A stretch of 64,000 nt of DNA from Methylocapsa palsarum (GTDB lineage Bacteria > Pseudomonadota > Alphaproteobacteria > Rhizobiales > Beijerinckiaceae), in NCBI RefSeq assembly GCF_900114285.1, contig NZ_FOSN01000003.1, positions 62,001-126,000 on the forward strand, in the 5' to 3' direction. Positions 1,095 to 64,000 of the stretch are shown piece after piece; within the stretch, counting starts at the first letter, position 1; each line of letters starts with the position of its first letter. The notes below the pieces were generated by a model, which was not told the DNA's origin, did not search any database, and worked only from the letters and a program-made list of their open reading frames with translations. The translations under genes were made by a program, and so were the position numbers.

Positions 1095-1099
1095 GGCTC

Positions 1100-1214
1100 G
1101 AGCGCTTTCCGATCGCATGAAATCATGCGATCGATCAGACATCGCTCCAGCGTCAAAGGCTTGCGCATATTCTTATCGATTGGATTGATTCAATCCGATC
1201 GGACTATGCTCTAA
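1100..1214 (-). repeat. Two-hairpin dispersed element, copy A
   Basis: First full copy of the dispersed element, in the orientation GAGCGCTTTC hairpin, then linker, then GCGCATATTC hairpin. It sits between the converging 3' ends of the beta-helix gene and the broken AraC gene, where it could also act as a bidirectional terminator. Confidence 0.85.
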
Positions 1215-5707: not shown

Positions 5708-6088
5708 GTGTCGGTCCCGGTGGTTTTCGAAAAGGAGAGTTTGGGTTGTCTAGAGCATATTCCGATGGGATTGAATCAATCCGATCGACAAGAATATGCT
5801 TAAGCTTTCGACTCTGGAGCGATTTCTGATCGATCGCATGACTGCATGTATCGGAAAGCGCTCGAGCGCAAATTTGGTTCAGATTGAATCGATCCGACGG
5901 GAGAACGCTCTGATCCGCGCGGCTTTGGACTGAGATCGCGTCGCGGCGTCGTGGCGGCATTATAAATTCATTTATGATCAATAACTTGAGAGTTTTTTGG
6001 CGCTATTGAGCAATCATAGGGAGATCAAAAACGAGCCGCGTAAGCGCCGGTCGTGAAAAAGCCGCCGCCGCCGCGGGCGCGCCGGCTT
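5708..6088. other. Intergenic region with repeat copy B and an AT-rich palindrome
   Basis: No gene is supported here. It holds dispersed element copy B (5753-5863) and then an AT-rich stretch containing the 14-base perfect palindrome ATAAATTCATTTAT at 5962-5975. The AT content around 5955-6030 is clearly higher than in the flanking genes. Since ycjX reads leftward from 5707, its promoter must lie inside or beyond the repeat, possibly at the AT-rich stretch. Confidence 0.6.
5753..5863 (+). repeat. Two-hairpin dispersed element, copy B
   Basis: Full copy in the orientation GAGCATATTC hairpin, linker, GAGCGATTTC hairpin. The inner arms are TGGGATTGA/TCAATCC and GATCGCATGA/TGCATG. It is preceded by CTAGAGC. 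It lies 46 bases upstream of the TTG start of ycjX, so it may be transcribed as part of the ycjX leader. Confidence 0.85.
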
Positions 6089-7728: not shown

Positions 7729-7964
7729 GGACAAATCGGGGCAAGATTTCGGGATCGCCGTCTCAAGGCTTGCGTCCTTTTTCATACTTTTGGCGCATTA
7801 AACAAGGGCTTCACCCTTTTCACGCGCTTTCACCACCCAGATGCGTCGAAACGAGGCGAGCGGAGCGCCAGGATTTCGACATTCAGGGTTTCAGAAGAAA
7901 GCGCACAGCGCCGGCAATGTAAATCGGACCAGCCTGGACGGCGTATGCCGAGGCGGCGGGCTGG

Positions 7965-8076
7965 GCATAGTCCGATTGGGTTGAATCAATCCAATCGAGA
8001 AGACTATGATCAAGCTTTTGACTCTGGAGCGATTTCTGATCAATCGCATGACTTCATGCGATCGGAAAGCGCTCTA
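7965..8076 (+). repeat. Two-hairpin dispersed element, copy C
   Basis: Full copy with outer arms GCATAGTC and GACTATG, a paired change relative to GCATATTC/GAATATGC in copy E, so the stem is kept although the bases differ. Its right end, CGCTCTAGA, contains the stop codon of the phasin gene on the opposite strand (8074-8076). Confidence 0.87.
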
Positions 8077-8484
8077 GACTTTTCTCACCGAATCGGAAAA
8101 TCGTTCGACATTAGAGACTGCCGATTGGCCGACTTCCTCAGCCGAGCGAATGGCCGTGCTCACGGATTTCAACCAGGCTTCCTGATAGGATTTCGTTATT
8201 TCCAAAGGCAAGGTTGACATCAATTCGCCCAGGCGGCGGGTGTATTGACCTGCGTGCTCGAAGGCTTCCTTGACGAAATTGGTCTGTATTGTGACTATTT
8301 CCTCGACGCCGTGAGCGCCGCGGAGTTTTTCCAGGGTCTGAGTGGCGTGTTCAAACGATTCTTTTGACATCTGCGCCACTTCGCCGGCAAACGCCTGTAA
8401 GTTTTTCGTTGTTGCAGCCATTCCGGAAACGGCTTCTTCCATCCCGGTTTTTCCGGCCGATAGCCGTTCGTCTTGCTGGGTCAT
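8074..8484 (-). CDS. Phasin family protein
   Basis: This 136-residue, highly helical protein has no signal or membrane segment. The pattern of amphipathic helices (NLQAFAGEVAQMSKESFEHA, IVTIQTNFVKEAFEHAGQYT, GELMSTLPLEITKSYQEAW) is that of phasins, which coat polyhydroxyalkanoate granules in alphaproteobacteria and help organise them. Its ATG follows GGAG. The stop codon falls exactly on the end of repeat copy C, so the repeat directly follows the coding region. The product suggests that the cell stores PHA, although no PHA synthase gene is in the window. Confidence 0.85.
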   Translation of the reverse strand: MTQQDERLSAGKTGMEEAVSGMAATTKNLQAFAGEVAQMSKESFEHATQTLEKLRGAHGVEEIVTIQTNFVKEAFEHAGQYTRRLGELMSTLPLEITKSYQEAWLKSVSTAIRSAEEVGQSAVSNVERFSDSVRKV

Positions 8485-8705: not shown

Positions 8706-11381
8706 CTACGCCCCCTGGCCGCTCAGACCTTCGCAGACCGCCGCAAGCGCAGCTTCGGACGCGGCGCTGTCCGGGCCGCCGGCTTGCGCGAGATCACGGC
8801 GGCCTCCGCCGCCCTTTCCGCCAAGTTTGAGCGCCGCGGCCCGAACCAGTTCGACGGCGTCGAAGCGCCCAGTCAAATCCGGGGTGACGCCGACGACGAT
8901 CCCGGCCCTGCCGTCAGCATCGACGCCAACGATGGCGACGACGCCGGAGCCGATTCCCTGCTTTGCTTCGTCGGCAAGCGATTTCAAATCTTTCATCTCG
9001 ATTCCGGTCACGGTGCGCGCGGCGAACTTGACGCCGCCGACCTCGCGCGTCTGTCGGGCCCCCGCGTCGTCGCCGCCCATGGCCAGTTTTTTGCGCGCGT
9101 CACTTAACTCCCGCTCGAGTTTCCGGCGCTCATCGATCAAGCCGGCGAGTTTCGCCGCGGCGTCTTCGTCCGGCGTCTTCAGCAGCGCCGCCACCTCGTG
9201 AAGACGGCGCGTCTGGAGGTTCAGATGGCGCCGCGCCTCGACCGCGGTCTTGGCCTCGATGCGCCGCACGCCTGCTCCGACGGCCGATTCCGAGACGATC
9301 GTGATGAGACCGATATCGCCGGTGCGCGCGACATGCGTCCCGCCGCAGAGCTCGATCGAGAAGGGGACGGGTGCGGCGTCGCCGTTCTCGGGGGTCTGCG
9401 CAAAGCCCATTGAAACGACCCGGACCTCGTCTGCGTATTTTTCGCCAAAAAGGGCTCTTGCGCCTGCATTGATCGCGTCTTCGACGGCCATCAGGCGCGT
9501 AGCGACCGGCGCGTTCTCGAGGATCGTTTTGTTGGCGATGTCCTCGACCCGCGCGAGTTCCTCCGCCGAAATCGGTTTGGGATGAGCGAAGTCGAACCGT
9601 AGCCGGTCGTCGGAGACAAGCGATCCCTTCTGGGCGACGTGGTCGCCGAGGACGAGACGGAGAGACTCGTGCAGCAGATGAGTCGCTGAATGGTTGGCGC
9701 GGACGGCGGTTCTGCGCGCGTGATCGACGATCAATTCGACGGCGAGTCCCGCCTTGACTTCGCCGGCCTCGACAAAGGCGTCATGCACGAAAAGGTCGCC
9801 GAGCTTTTTGCGCGTGTCGCCAATCCGCACCCGCAGGTCTTTGGTCTGAAGAATGCCGGCGTCGCCGATCTGTCCGCCGGATTCGCCATAGAAAGGCGTT
9901 TGATTGAGAATGACCGAGCCGCTTTCGCCAGCGCGCAAGGCGTCGACCTCGACGCCGTCCTTGACCAAGGCGAGCACGACGCCTTCCGCCCGTTCGGCGT
10001 CATAGCCCAGAAAATCGGTGGCCCCGGTTTTCTCCTTGAGAGCGAACCAGATTCTTTCCGTTCCGGTCTCGCCGGAGCCTGACCATGATTTGCGGGCCTC
10101 GGCCCGCTGGCGCGCCATGGCGGTCTCGAAACCCTCGACGTCGACGTCAATGGCGCGCGCCCGCAAGGCGTCCTTGGTAAGGTCGAGCGGAAAGCCGTAA
10201 GTGTCGTAGAGCTTGAACGCGACATCGCCCGGCAATGCATCTCCCTGCGAGAGATCGCGGACGGCCTCGTCGAGGATCGACAGGCCGCGCGCGAGCGTTT
10301 CGCGAAAGCGGGTTTCTTCGAGGCGAAGGGTTTCGATGATAAGGGGTTCGGCCCGCAAAAGCTCGGGGTAGGCCTGACCCATCTGTTGCGAAAGCACCGG
10401 AACGAGCTTCCACATCAAAGGATCGGGGGCGCCCAGCATTTGCGCGTGCCGCATAGCCCGGCGCATGATGCGGCGAAGCACGTAGCCGCGCCCCTCGTTC
10501 GACGGCGAGACGCCATCGGCGACGAGAAAGGCGGAGGCGCGAAGGTGGTCGGCGATGACCCGGTGGCTCGCCTTTTGCGGGCCGTCGGGATCAACCCCGG
10601 TCGCGGCGCCGACCGCGATGATCAGCGCGCGCATCAGGTCGATGTCGAAATTGGATTGCACCCCCTGAAGGAGCGCAGCGATCCGTTCAAGCCCCATGCC
10701 CGTGTCGATCGACGGCTTTGGAAGGGCCACCCGTTCGCCGGGCGAGACCTGTTCAAACTGCATGAAGACGAGATTCCAGAATTCAAGGAATCGGTCGCCG
10801 TCTTCGTCGGCGCTCCCGGGCGGGCCGCCTTGCAGCTTGTCGCCCTGATCGTAGAAAATCTCCGAACAGGGGCCGCAGGGGCCGGTGTCGCCCATCGACC
10901 AGAAGTTGTCGGAAGTCGCTATCCGGATGATCCTCGAATCCGGAAAGCCCGCGATCTTCCGCCAGAGTTCGAAGGCCTCATCGTCATCATGATAGACGGT
11001 GACGAGCAGGCGGTCCTTCGAGAGCCCGAACTCTTGCGTGATCAGCTTCCAGGCGAGTTCGATCGCGAGCGGCTTGAAATAGTCGCCAAACGAAAAATTG
11101 CCGAGCATTTCGAAGAAAGTATTATGCCGTGCGGTGTAGCCGACATTGTCGAGATCATTATGTTTGCCCCCCGCGCGCACGCATTTTTGCGCCGTCGCCG
11201 CGCGGGAATAGGGCCGCTTTTCCTGGCCGGTGAACAGGTTCTTGAATTGAACCATGCCCGCGTTGGTGAACATCAACGTCGGGTCGTTCCGGGGAACCAA
11301 CGACGACGATTGTACGATCTCATGGCCGTTTTTGGCAAAAAAGCTGAGAAACGCGGACCGGATCTCGTTGACGCCGTTCAT
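8706..11381 (-). CDS. alaS: Alanyl-tRNA synthetase
   Basis: The 891-residue protein is full length for AlaS, a class II synthetase that charges tRNA-Ala. The N-terminal catalytic domain shows [16 protein letters not shown] and [15 protein letters not shown]. The editing domain carries [13 protein letters not shown] and the zinc-binding [13 protein letters not shown] near residue 670. The C-terminal DHHA1 region has Gly-rich [15 protein letters not shown]. It lies about 290 bases downstream of recA on the same strand, the usual alphaproteobacterial order. Nothing is missing from the catalytic or editing motifs. Confidence 0.97.
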
Positions 11382-15251: not shown

Positions 15252-15510
15252 AAGCGCCCGCCGCGCGGCCGGAAGGCGGGGACGCAAGCAATTCTCGATA
15301 CTTCAGGCGAGCAATTTCTCGATACTTCAGAACCGAAGCAGGGATCGCGAACGCGCGTCGAAGCCTGCGTTTCCTCGCTGGATCATATTCTACTCGATCG
15401 GATGACTTCATGCGATCGGAAAGGGCTCTCTCCGCATCGCCGGGAAGTCCCGGATCGCCGGCGCGCGAAGGGCGCATCGGAGACCGCCGCAAGACCAGCG
15501 GCCTTTCCTT
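15252..15510. other. Intergenic region with a 20-23 bp duplication and a repeat fragment
   Basis: No gene is seen. It contains a near-perfect duplication (GCAATTCTCGATACTTCAG, then GCAATTTCTCGATACTTCAG, about 15289-15331) and a fragment of the dispersed element at 15392-15428. The flanking genes converge here. Confidence 0.6.
15392..15428 (+). repeat. Fragment of the dispersed element, copy D
   Basis: Only the inner part of the second hairpin remains (CGATCGGATGACTTCATGCGATCGG followed by AAAGGGCTC, here described in parts). The first hairpin has been lost or altered beyond recognition. Confidence 0.6.
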
Positions 15511-19304: not shown

Positions 19305-20536
19305 TATAGCAATTGCAATTGTTCCCCCGCGCGCGGGGGAGGCATGAAGAGATCCGTGCGCAACGGCGTCCGGCTTTTCGCCAGTCCCAATCGAGAGGCG
19401 GCGATTTCGAAGCGGCGTCCGACCGTCCACGCATAGGGGCCGGCTCCGGTCATGCGTTTGCCGAAGGCGGGATCGTAGTCCTTGCCGCCCCGCGTCGAAC
19501 GCACGAGAGACATGACATGCGAGAGCTTGCCGGGGAAATGCGCCAGAAGCCATTGCTTGAAAATGTCGCGCACCTCCAGCGGCAGACGCAGCATGACATA
19601 ACCTGCCCCGCTTGCTCCCATCGCCTGGGCGCGGGTCAGGATGGCCTCGATTTCGGCGTCGTTGAGCGCCGGAATGATCGGCGCGACCATGACAGCCGTC
19701 GGAACGCCCGCCTGCGCCAGCCGCCTGATCGCTTCAAGGCGGCGCTCCGGAGCGCTCGCCCTTGGCTCCATCTTCCGCGCAAGCTCCTTGTCGAGAGTCG
19801 TGACCGAGAGGGCGACCTTGACCAGACCTTTTTCCGCCATCGGGCCGAGCAGATCGAGGTCGCGCAGGATGAGCGCGGATTTTGTGACGATGCCGACCGG
19901 ATGGTTGGTCCTCGCCAGAACCTCGAGGATCCGCCGCATCACCTTGCGCGTGCGTTCGATCGGCTGGTAGGGATCGGTGTTCGTGCCGATGGCGATGGTC
20001 TTTGGCCGATAGTTTCGCGCCGACAATTCACGCTCCAGAAGCTCGGCGGCGTTGGTCTTGGCGAACAGGCGGGTTTCAAAATCGAGGCCCGGGGAGAGGC
20101 CCAGAAACGCGTGTATCGGCCGCGCGAAGCAATAACTGCAACCATGTTCGCATCCGCGATACGGATTGATCGAACGATCGAAGGAAATGTCGGGCGATTC
20201 GTTGCGGGTGATGATGGATTTGGCGCGTTCTTCGCTGACATGGGTTCGTAGCGGCGGCAGATCATCGGCTTCGCCCCAGCCATCGTCTTCGCGAAACCGC
20301 GCCTCGCTTTCAAAACGGCCGCTGGCGTTGGTGACGGCGCCGCGACCATGCAAAACTCTAAGGTCCGGCAAAACCGCAAGGTCCGGCAAAGCCGTAAGGT
20401 CCGGCAAAGCCGTAAGCTCCGCGAAAGCCGCCAGATCTGGCAAAGCTCGCGCGCCCGGAGATTCAGCAAAGGCGGCGGAGCTGAAATGCGCCTCTTTCGC
20501 GAATGTCGGCACGAAAAACTCCGCATAAGGGGTCAT
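19304..20536 (-). CDS. PA0069 family radical SAM protein (SplB-like)
   Basis: The 410-residue protein has the radical SAM cluster motif in RGCEHGCSYCFARP (Cys-x3-Cys-x2-Cys), preceded by ISFDRSINPYRGC as in the PA0069/spore-photoproduct-lyase-related group. Further blocks are TIAIGTNTDPYQPIERTRKV and ALSVTTLDKELARKMEPRA. Its reaction is unknown. The N-terminus holds five 18-bp tandem units giving repeated ALPDL-x hexapeptides before the usual RGRGAV-like segment (HGRGAVTNASGRFES). The start is uncertain: ATG 20536 or ATG 20590. It is on the minus strand, divergent from the glycogen operon. Confidence 0.85.
   Translation of the reverse strand: MTPYAEFFVPTFAKEAHFSSAAFAESPGARALPDLAAFAELTALPDLTALPDLAVLPDLRVLHGRGAVTNASGRFESEARFREDDGWGEADDLPPLRTHVSEERAKSIITRNESPDISFDRSINPYRGCEHGCSYCFARPIHAFLGLSPGLDFETRLFAKTNAAELLERELSARNYRPKTIAIGTNTDPYQPIERTRKVMRRILEVLARTNHPVGIVTKSALILRDLDLLGPMAEKGLVKVALSVTTLDKELARKMEPRASAPERRLEAIRRLAQAGVPTAVMVAPIIPALNDAEIEAILTRAQAMGASGAGYVMLRLPLEVRDIFKQWLLAHFPGKLSHVMSLVRSTRGGKDYDPAFGKRMTGAGPYAWTVGRRFEIAASRLGLAKSRTPLRTDLFMPPPRAGEQLQLL
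20360..20449. repeat. Five 18-bp tandem units in the radical SAM gene
   Basis: Units are AAGGTCCGGCAAAACCGC, AAGGTCCGGCAAAGCCGT twice without change, AAGCTCCGCGAAAGCCGC and CAGATCTGGCAAAGCTCG. They are in frame and encode hexapeptides of the form ALPDLT. The identical pair suggests recent expansion. Confidence 0.9.
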
Positions 20537-45021: not shown

Positions 45022-45373
45022 GCGCCCCGCCTTTGCCTTGAAGCCCAACGGCGACTGGAAATACTGAGAATGAACTTCAAAGAAAAATTATTGATAAAAT
45101 CACTTGATCCCGAAACAGGAAATGCGCCGACGCAGGCCTCTTTGCGCCATGCGATCGGAAAGCGATCTAAACGAAGAGGTTTCACTCGGGACGAGGGGCG
45201 GGGCGGCCCAGCCTTTGCTGCTCGAACCTATGTTTGGGCCGGGCGCCCTAATGTCAAGCTTGCGCCAATGCTGAAGCTGCCTATGTTACAGGCTCCTTTT
45301 CATGTCTAGGATCGGGTTCCGTCGCCGCGGCGCCCCGGCGCCGAACGATTGGACCTGGAGCGCGGCGGATCAT
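45022..45373. other. Intergenic region with a fragment of the dispersed element
   Basis: No gene is seen. A short remnant of the dispersed element lies at 45148-45171 (CATGCGATCGGAAAGCG then ATCTAAA). The region must contain the promoters for the ParB-like gene (leftward) and the flavin reductase (rightward). Confidence 0.5.
45148..45171 (+). repeat. Remnant of the dispersed element, copy H
   Basis: Only one arm of the second hairpin remains: CATGCGATCGGAAAGCG followed by ATCTAAA, which compares with CATGCGATCGGAAAGCGCTC in complete copies. Confidence 0.5.
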
Positions 45374-46051: not shown

Positions 46052-46164
46052 AGAGCGCTTTCCGATCGCATGAAATCATGCGATCGATCAGAAATCGCTC
46101 CAGGGTCAAAGGCTTGAGCATATTCTTGTCGATTGGATTGATTCAATCCAATCGGAATATGCAC
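46052..46164 (-). repeat. Two-hairpin dispersed element, copy E (best copy)
   Basis: The clearest copy. First hairpin: GAGCGCTTTC, inner arm CGATCGCATGA, loop AA, inner arm TCATGCGATCG, bulge ATCA, GAAATCGCTC. Linker CAGGGTCAAAGGCTT. Second hairpin: GAGCATATTC, bulge TTGT, CGATTGGATTGA, TTCAATCCAATCG, GAATATGC. The two four-base bulges face each other across the linker. Confidence 0.92.
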
Positions 46165-46412
46165 TAGCGGCCGGCGCCAATACAGGCGCGGCTTTCATGG
46201 CTGAGACCTTCTCTTTCATTCGCCACCAATCTTTCATTCGCCGCCAAGGGTTTTGAACGAATTGCCGGCCGACGCATTCAGCGGTCCTGGTCCGATGGCG
46301 CCGGGCAGATGGCGAAGGAAGGCATTTGTTCAGGATTTCAAGCGACGATTTTGTGTCGCGCGCGTCGAAAGCGCGCCTCAAGCTCAAGTCGGCATGCGGT
46401 TTGCTCGTTGTT

Positions 46413-58983: not shown

Positions 58984-59013
58984 AACGCCGTTTTGAAATC
59001 TCTTGAGCCTCTG

Positions 59014-59065
59014 GAGCGATTTCTGATCGCTCGCATGACTTCATGCGATCGGAAAGCGCTCTAGA
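59014..59065 (+). repeat. Half copy of the dispersed element, copy F
   Basis: Only the second hairpin is kept: GAGCGATTTCTGATCGCTCG, then CATGACTTCATGCGATCGG, then AAAGCGCTCTAGA. Its right end supplies the stop codon (TAG in CTAGA) of the TonB receptor gene on the opposite strand at 59061. Confidence 0.8.
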
Positions 59066-63865: not shown

Positions 63866-63924
63866 GGCAAGCCAGGAACGCCCAAGCGAAGATCACTCGA
63901 ACGAACCTGCGTCAGCCGCGCTTA

Positions 63925-64000
63925 GAGCATATTCCGATTGGATTGAATCAATCCAATCGAGAAGACTATGCTCAAGCTTTTGACTCTGGAGCGACTTCTG
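63925..64000 (+). repeat. Two-hairpin dispersed element, copy G (cut by window end)
   Basis: The first hairpin is complete (GAGCATATTC, CGATTGGATTGA, ATCAATCCAATCG, AGAA, GACTATGCTC) and the second begins GAGCGACTTCTG at the end of the window. It is 60 bases upstream of the histidine kinase start, which reads the other way. Confidence 0.88.

Follow-up and report, generated by a model that had tools for sequence, protein, structure and literature searches.

Copies of the element in the window

The question raised by this locus is what kind of sequence the two-hairpin repeat recurring along it is, and by what machinery it could have been dispersed. The window, i.e., the whole stretch of DNA analyzed (G000:C26:62001-126000; 64 kb, 62.6% G+C), belongs to a genome of 4.1 Mb in 78 contigs. 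A repeat search, blastn and a covariance model agreed in finding four complete copies, one copy cut by the window end and two copies of the left half alone, to which the repeat search added a 25-base scrap. The complete copies, composed of two hairpins and a linker, are located at 1099..1213 (plus strand; the 5′ TA is lost, reading TC, and the 3′ TA is intact), 5751..5864 (minus strand; half 1 with a one-base deletion), 7961..8075 (minus strand) and 46052..46166 (plus strand), the last one being taken as the reference copy. The copy cut by the window end (63923..64000, minus strand) is complete in the genome as C26:125923-126037. A degenerate left half (half 1) stands alone at 15388..15429 and another solo half 1 at 59011..59062, both on the minus strand, as is the scrap of the half 1 end at 45148..45172.

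The copy positions 1100, 5753, 7965, 46052 and 63925 given in an earlier note, prepared from the sequence alone, were right to within a few bases, and both orientations are indeed present. Of the three fragments also claimed there, those at 59011-59062 and 15388-15429 are real left-half hairpins, while the one at 45148-45172 is a mere scrap that the covariance model misses. The claim that the element occurs only outside genes agrees with the window ORFs checked, except that two copies start inside a stop codon, which they re-form: the TA-G of the copy at 7961..8075 is the TAG stop codon (8074-8076) of a phasin-like ORF (8074-8484), and that of the solo half at 59011..59062 gives the stop codon (59061-59063) of a TonB-receptor ORF.

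The E values of the four complete copies with the covariance model ranged from 6e-26 to 4e-21 and, together with the genome-wide matches described below, they exclude a chance origin. No Rfam family matched the window at the gathering score. Elsewhere in the window (20350-20439), about five units of an 18-base sequence (GCAAAACCGCAAGGTCCG-like) stand in tandem amid long ORFs.

Architecture of the element and conservation of its pairing

Inside the flanking TA dinucleotides, the unit runs from GAGC to GCTC over about 112 bp. In the consensus, hairpin 1 consists of a 9-pair outer stem with one mismatch, a 10-pair inner stem and a four-base bulge facing the linker, and hairpin 2 is its mirror. 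In the reference copy, hairpin 1 (46053..46100, plus strand) has this same composition of stems, with the bulge ATCA on the linker-facing arm; it is followed on the same strand by the linker (46101..46115) and by hairpin 2 (46116..46164), with an outer stem that has 10 pairs in the consensus (one foot base is altered here), an inner stem of 11 pairs, the four-base bulge TTGT on the linker-facing arm and, in the loop, the CcrM site GATTC, 21-25 bases from the outer end. The GAGC...GCTC feet, the stems and the mirror-placed four-base bulges were correctly described beforehand as regards the consensus; the copy at 46052 has one foot altered to GCAC. The second half is an inverted relative of the first (about 80% over a stretch of 50 bases), and the ends of the element are imperfect inverted repeats to the same extent. 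With RNA parameters, the consensus folds into two hairpins with -54 kcal/mol, versus -43 kcal/mol for a forced single long hairpin.

The pairing was evaluated in alignment A4, which comprises 25 of 30 rows from the own genome and its relatives, two hybrid rows and three odd rows having been left out. Paired cells amounted to 95.5%, versus 83.5 in shuffles, and two-sided changes were found in 23 of 38 pairs, versus 12.4 in shuffles; when the structure was slid along the alignment, the pairing dropped to 31-45%. Columns 89-95 are paired in only 13 of the 25 rows. Within the own genome alone, the signal was weak (7 pairs with two-sided changes versus 2.2), because the copies are too alike, the mean column identity of the 43 sampled there (alignment A1) being 94%. 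Across related species, the pairing, including both four-base bulges, is kept by compensatory change. The earlier reading of the repeat as a hairpin element depended on the stems being preserved elsewhere, and they are, in the 25 copies of A4.

Copy number and distribution

The genome-wide search with a covariance model, which had been proposed as a check, gave at least 150 element matches in the own genome. The lowest of them scored 107 bits, above the 83 bits reached by reverse-strand echoes of one copy. Such echoes are possible because the element is nearly palindromic, and the per-genome counts of the relatives may contain them. The model matches 14 of the 15 genomes of the genus and 19 of 40 relatives overall. 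Five plasmid records, of Methylocella and Methylosinus, match the element as well, and the copy of Methylocella tundrae T4 plasmid p1 lies between annotated genes and agrees in coordinates and strand with the match at C2:38003-38111 of G014, which is probably that strain, so that the genus would be Methylocella in the GTDB sense; phage records gave no element match at the sensitivity used. In a plasmid of Methylosinus trichosporium OB3b (L240 1497-1605), a half 1 hairpin of the family sits right at the point where an annotated gene has its stop codon; next to it comes a short palindrome, TA-GAGC...GCTC-TA, which may be a minimal element with one arm.

Among 80 alaS loci, the covariance model gave four rows at E up to 1, located in L101, L092 (two rows) and L074. 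L101, from Bradyrhizobium, is a clear two-arm copy and was also the sole find of a strict descriptor run over these loci. Run over the window, the strict descriptor found no copy, since the TA or a foot has decayed in the copies located there.

Whole elements also form tandem arrays (G000:C37:168248-168586 and L030 1500-1726) in which they are joined by GCTC-GAGC or by a couple of bases, without TA; these tandem copies are not accounted for by simple insertion at TA. Arrays of half-units with a pitch of about 54-62 bases were observed at L195 5878-6128, G009:C1:2414841-2415008 and G002:C131:25094-25308, and their layout suggests that a hairpin on its own can be amplified in tandem.

A second two-arm family, TA-GAGCGAAATGCG...CATCATGCTC-TA (105 bp), is present in 12 of the 15 genomes of the genus and gave no match in the genome of the window. 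Its copies often adjoin those of the first family, as they do in L308 and L309; in L304 (second-family copy at 9495-9599) the adjoining pair shares one TA. The genome G008, of the same genus, contains no first-family match, 28 second-family matches and at least 150 matches to transposases of the IS5/DUF4096 type.

Variable positions and insertion at TA

The comparison of orthologous intergenic regions, another check proposed at the outset, was centred on the gene order alaS-phasin-sixA-ORF6089-ORF4211, which is kept in eight of the nine relatives examined, G008 being without two of the genes. Among the genomes compared, the element occurs in the phasin/sixA gap only in G000, the own genome, and in the sixA/ORF6089 gap only in G004. 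In the ORF6089/ORF4211 gap it occurs in G000, with weak matches (32, 26 bits) in G004 and G001, and beyond ORF4211 G004 has a half copy and both G007 and G009 have elements that are hybrid with the second family. The window copy at 7961-8075 has no match in the orthologous gap of the eight relatives that have both flanking genes. So, the gene order is constant and the element positions vary, some of them as judged by weak matches.

Filled and empty sites were compared between G002 and G014, which are 98% identical. Over 140 kb and further stretches they share nine copies, and several are polymorphic. At L201 9721-9840, G014 is filled, reading GCGC-TA-[element]-TA-GAGG, and G002 is empty, reading GCGC-TA-GAGG. 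At L301 9237-9353, G002 is filled with a TA at each side, and the empty site of G014 has one TA with an adjoining deletion. At L050 2449-2553, a second-family repeat occupies a TA in G002 and is absent from G014. The places compared were 25 in the G014 pieces and 24 in the G002 pieces, some of them being one copy present in two loci; many were without a counterpart among the compared pieces and were left out of the judgement. Four further cases were excluded from the TA evidence: site 1 (L200 11048 versus L193) and L304/L303, polymorphic but not clean, L280/L298, lacking a matching left flank, and L299 1259/L302, which is complex. Insertion at a TA, which is duplicated, was thus seen for the first family at two sites, one of which adjoins a deletion, and for the second family at a single site. 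Such TA duplication is a hallmark of IS630/Tc1-mariner transposition.

Concerning the target, a pyrimidine (C or T) precedes the TA position in 38 of the 43 sampled copies and a purine (G or A) follows it in 40 of 43; the TA itself is present at the 5′ end in 28/43, at the 3′ end in 26/43 and at both ends in 20/43. As the element starts with G, its insertion into a TAR stop codon re-forms TAG. Of 48 intact TA-GAG ends, taken from 33 of the 43 copies with most tandem neighbours left out, 21 terminate an open frame that is 100 codons long or longer, versus 29 of the 167 remaining YTAG sites of these loci (Fisher p = 4e-4); with a minimum of 200 codons the figures were 10/48 versus 15/167 (p = 0.04), the open frame being in both tests a crude proxy of a gene in G+C-rich DNA. 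This excess at frame ends, together with the pairing kept across species, is what could be expected if a once mobile element were now retained for a host function, either transcript-end processing or a regulatory site linked to CcrM/GcrA. That is considered very unlikely, as the positions vary among relatives of the same gene order, and the structure is equally explained by a transposition unit.

IS630 elements as candidate mobilisers

The transposase families searched were Y1, DDE_3 and DUF4096. Genes of DDE_3 (IS630-type) transposases are present in all 15 genomes of the genus, including the own genome. When the 256 tetramers were compared as TA-flanked ends bracketing an IS630 gene at IS distance, GAGC ranked first, with 7 of 21 genus loci (of at least 3 kb), three of the seven being the same IS; the next best tetramer had 2 and the mean over 256 was 0.11. 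An order-wide search covered 121 genomes, 51 of them with a DDE_3 match. Among 29 new loci of the order, a TA-GAGC span was found in 13 (next tetramer 3, mean 0.34), and the other 16, several of which are cut by contig ends, were without it.

The own genome has one complete IS630 of this TA-GAGC kind, of about 1050 bp, at L208 1381-2428, with two ORFs overlapping at a run of eight A (coding strand); its product is an IS630 family transposase by NCBIfam, NF033545 being above the cut-off for the larger ORF. Its inner end sequence differs from that of the element. Beyond GAGC and GANTC, the best agreement between the element and IS ends was 13 of 16 bases, with the IS of L332, from a genome of another family, a likeness reached by 53 and 89 of 5000 shuffles. 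Judged by these alignments, the additional likeness to IS ends is modest. No IS630 element with arms or with ends near-identical to those of the element was found in the DDE_3 loci of the genus and the order.

The ends of the IS630 elements were also inspected for GANTC, the CcrM site. The 13 new loci with TA-GAGC contain 19 spans; one was kept per locus for the 12 loci with ends matching in at least 14/25 positions, a rule set after seeing the rows, and L327 (9/25) and the alternative spans were dropped. To these 12 loci, for which the pattern had been predicted beforehand, were added eight of the genus, in which it had been first noticed. In the resulting 20 rows, GANTC is at base 21 of the transposase-upstream end in 20/20 and of the other end in 0/20. 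These rows are related by descent and thus not independent: one and the same IS, all in one genome, accounts for L210, L222 and L236, and L231 is closely related to it. L327, whose left end is spurious, lacks GANTC at base 21 of its single convincing end, so that when all 13 new TA-GAGC loci are counted the site is present in 12 of 13. The IS630 target in the same 20 rows has a pyrimidine before TA in 18/20 and a purine after it in 20/20, and the element prefers this same YTAR. At the upstream ends of the genus IS630 loci and of L312-L332, additional GANTC sites are repeatedly found at bases 32-35 and 55-56, where they may belong to the promoter of the transposase.

As to the element itself, 37 of the 43 copies of the own genome have a GANTC that starts at base 21 counted from the half 2 end; counted from the half 1 end, none of the 43 has it there and one has it at base 20. 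Of the 23 related-genome rows of A4, 15 have the site at base 21 of half 1 and 5 at base 21 of half 2, three rows having it in both halves, and the remaining six are without it at that base. GANTC is found at base 21 also in the copy of Rhizobium plasmid pRL12 (L239) and in the second family. The own genome encodes a CcrM-like protein, with 597 bits to the NCBIfam CcrM model, which does not reach its cut-off of 830, and with a RAMA domain above cut-off.

Other transposases considered

An IS5-type (DUF4096) transposase, or another DDE transposase also targeting TA or YTAR, could in principle mobilise the element as a miniature derivative: IS5-type IS are present in 15 of 15 genomes of the genus, and several have TA-flanked ends with GANTC at base 19 or 21. 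This last arrangement was found at one end of ten IS5-type loci (L241-L243, L245-L247, L256, L261, L262 and L269), which end in GGTC and have further sites at 28 and 42-44. GANTC is therefore not unique to IS630, and the IS630 assignment rests on the GAGC terminus and the TA duplication, not on GANTC; as far as these ends indicate, CcrM sites may be a wider feature of transposon ends in the genus. The IS5-type mobiliser was rejected for the mismatch of its ends, despite the GANTC near one of them: a TA-flanked inverted repeat was recognised in 12 of 30 IS5-type loci (L241-L270), and none starts with GAGC, the starts being GGTC, GGTT, GGCG and GATC. Moreover, G008, with its wealth of DUF4096 matches, has second-family copies yet lacks the first family. 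We consider this origin unlikely.

RAYT transposases (Y1, HuH) cut single-stranded hairpins and are not known to duplicate their target. The earlier note had likened the element to a REP/BIME or REPIN doublet spread by such an enzyme, and in outline the resemblance stands: this is a dispersed mobile element of two inverted hairpin halves. Its doublet of bulged hairpins, high copy number and tandem clusters fit the description of REPINs in PMC3116915 and PMC3733652. The link with RAYT did not stand, a TA duplication and termini matching IS630 being found instead. There is no match to Y1 (PF01797) in the own genome, an absence that by itself would be compatible with a RAYT lost after spreading; Y1 is present in only 3 of the 15 genomes of the genus and in none of those richest in element matches (G000, G004 and G010). 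A RAYT gene flanked by the hairpin was looked for in 40 relatives, whose 14 Y1 loci, including flanks of no more than about 1.5 kb at each side, gave 0 matches to the element model, and the Y1 candidate was rejected. Dispersal by RAYT seems, all this considered, highly improbable.

Comparison with other intergenic repeats

The name CIR stands for Caulobacter CcrM-associated intergenic repeats. According to the review PMC2229807, they are intergenic, measure about 110 bp, occur in Caulobacter, Brucella and further alphaproteobacteria, and consist of two arms joined by a linker, with GANTC in a terminal loop; its table lists them with TA termini, without a terminal inverted repeat and with a question mark for target duplication, and more information on their mobility is called for there. 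The element shares with the described CIRs the length of about 110 bp, two arms and a linker, the GANTC in the loop of one arm (37/43 own copies) and the TA ends; it differs from the table entry in its imperfect inverted ends of the IS630 type, and it shows a TA duplication. It can be called CIR-like, by likeness to the description of CIRs rather than to the sequences of CIR1-4. No DDE_3 match was obtained in the control genome of Caulobacter vibrioides, so the IS630 reading is unproven for the Caulobacter CIRs.

A precedent for a repeat moved by IS630 is RUP of Streptococcus pneumoniae, according to PMC2229807 a 107-bp intergenic repeat with 108 copies and TA as target, for which an IS630-type mobiliser was proposed. 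Size, intergenic location and target are similar to those of the element. RUP belongs to another phylum, differs in sequence and, as described there, has ends highly similar to those of its IS, unlike the ends of the element, which in turn differs from RUP in having two separate bulged arms and a CcrM site. With respect to REPIN/RAYT systems, as described in PMC3116915 and PMC3733652, the inverted hairpin doublet is shared, and the element differs in that no RAYT was found, TA is duplicated, there is no GTAG tag and the arms are of about 50 bp.

The copies from Rhizobium and Bradyrhizobium follow the same two-arm plan and end in TA-AAGC/GCTC-TA or GCTT-TA. In rhizobial plasmids, a family of the same plan was found in 250 records and 411 places, 40 records covering most of the query. 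RIME repeats of the Rhizobiaceae are about 110 bp long and contain two palindromes, and we take this plasmid family to be probably of the RIME type. Its sequence differs strongly from that of the element, and RIME1 is likened to it by plan only; RIME repeats of rhizobia are discussed in PMC2573895. Many matches of related repeats in rhizobia and some in Methylocella (plasmid hits H6-H19 and others, and H46 and H47) are listed under annotated genes. Going by these annotations, these families appear to be not strictly intergenic, or to overlap gene ends.

Proposed mechanism and meaning

Considering the observed copy number, pairing, TA-duplicating insertion, GAGC termini and GANTC position, the repeat is most probably a CIR-like MITE, i.e., a non-autonomous miniature transposon, of the IS630 (Tc1/mariner-like) type, which would be mobilised in trans and might be controlled by CcrM. 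An IS630-family transposase supplied in trans would move the element by cut and paste after recognising its outer ends (GAGC and some 20 further bases); the GAGC...GCTC unit inserts at TA, preferably YTAR, with duplication of the TA. Each arm folds on itself, so that one end has the CcrM site GANTC in its loop, 21 bases from the end, exactly the position that it occupies in the transposase-upstream end of the IS630 elements of the order. The CcrM methylation state could then influence either the recognition of the end or the expression of the transposase.

Dam methylation gates IS10 in a like manner. More tentatively, and with some doubt on our part, CcrM methylation might gate transposition throughout an entire class of mobile elements in alphaproteobacteria, formed by IS630-type elements and their two-arm derivatives (CIR, RIME-like and Methylocella repeats): the GANTC kept at base 21 would allow movement or transposase expression mainly from hemimethylated DNA, just behind the replication fork. 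No published link between IS630 and either CIR/RIME-type repeats or CcrM was found among the papers listed from the open-licence literature, which is weak evidence of absence; the available portions of PMC2229807 and PMC9296519 do not link IS630, such repeats and CcrM.

Descriptions of the two-arm intergenic repeats of alphaproteobacteria (CIR and RIME) have so far not included how they move. A concrete candidate mobiliser, and also a reason for the presence of the CcrM site, emerge from the TA-duplicating insertions, together with the shared GAGC ends and the constant position of GANTC. If the gating by methylation were true, the CcrM site behind the CIR name would be an inherited part of a transposon end.
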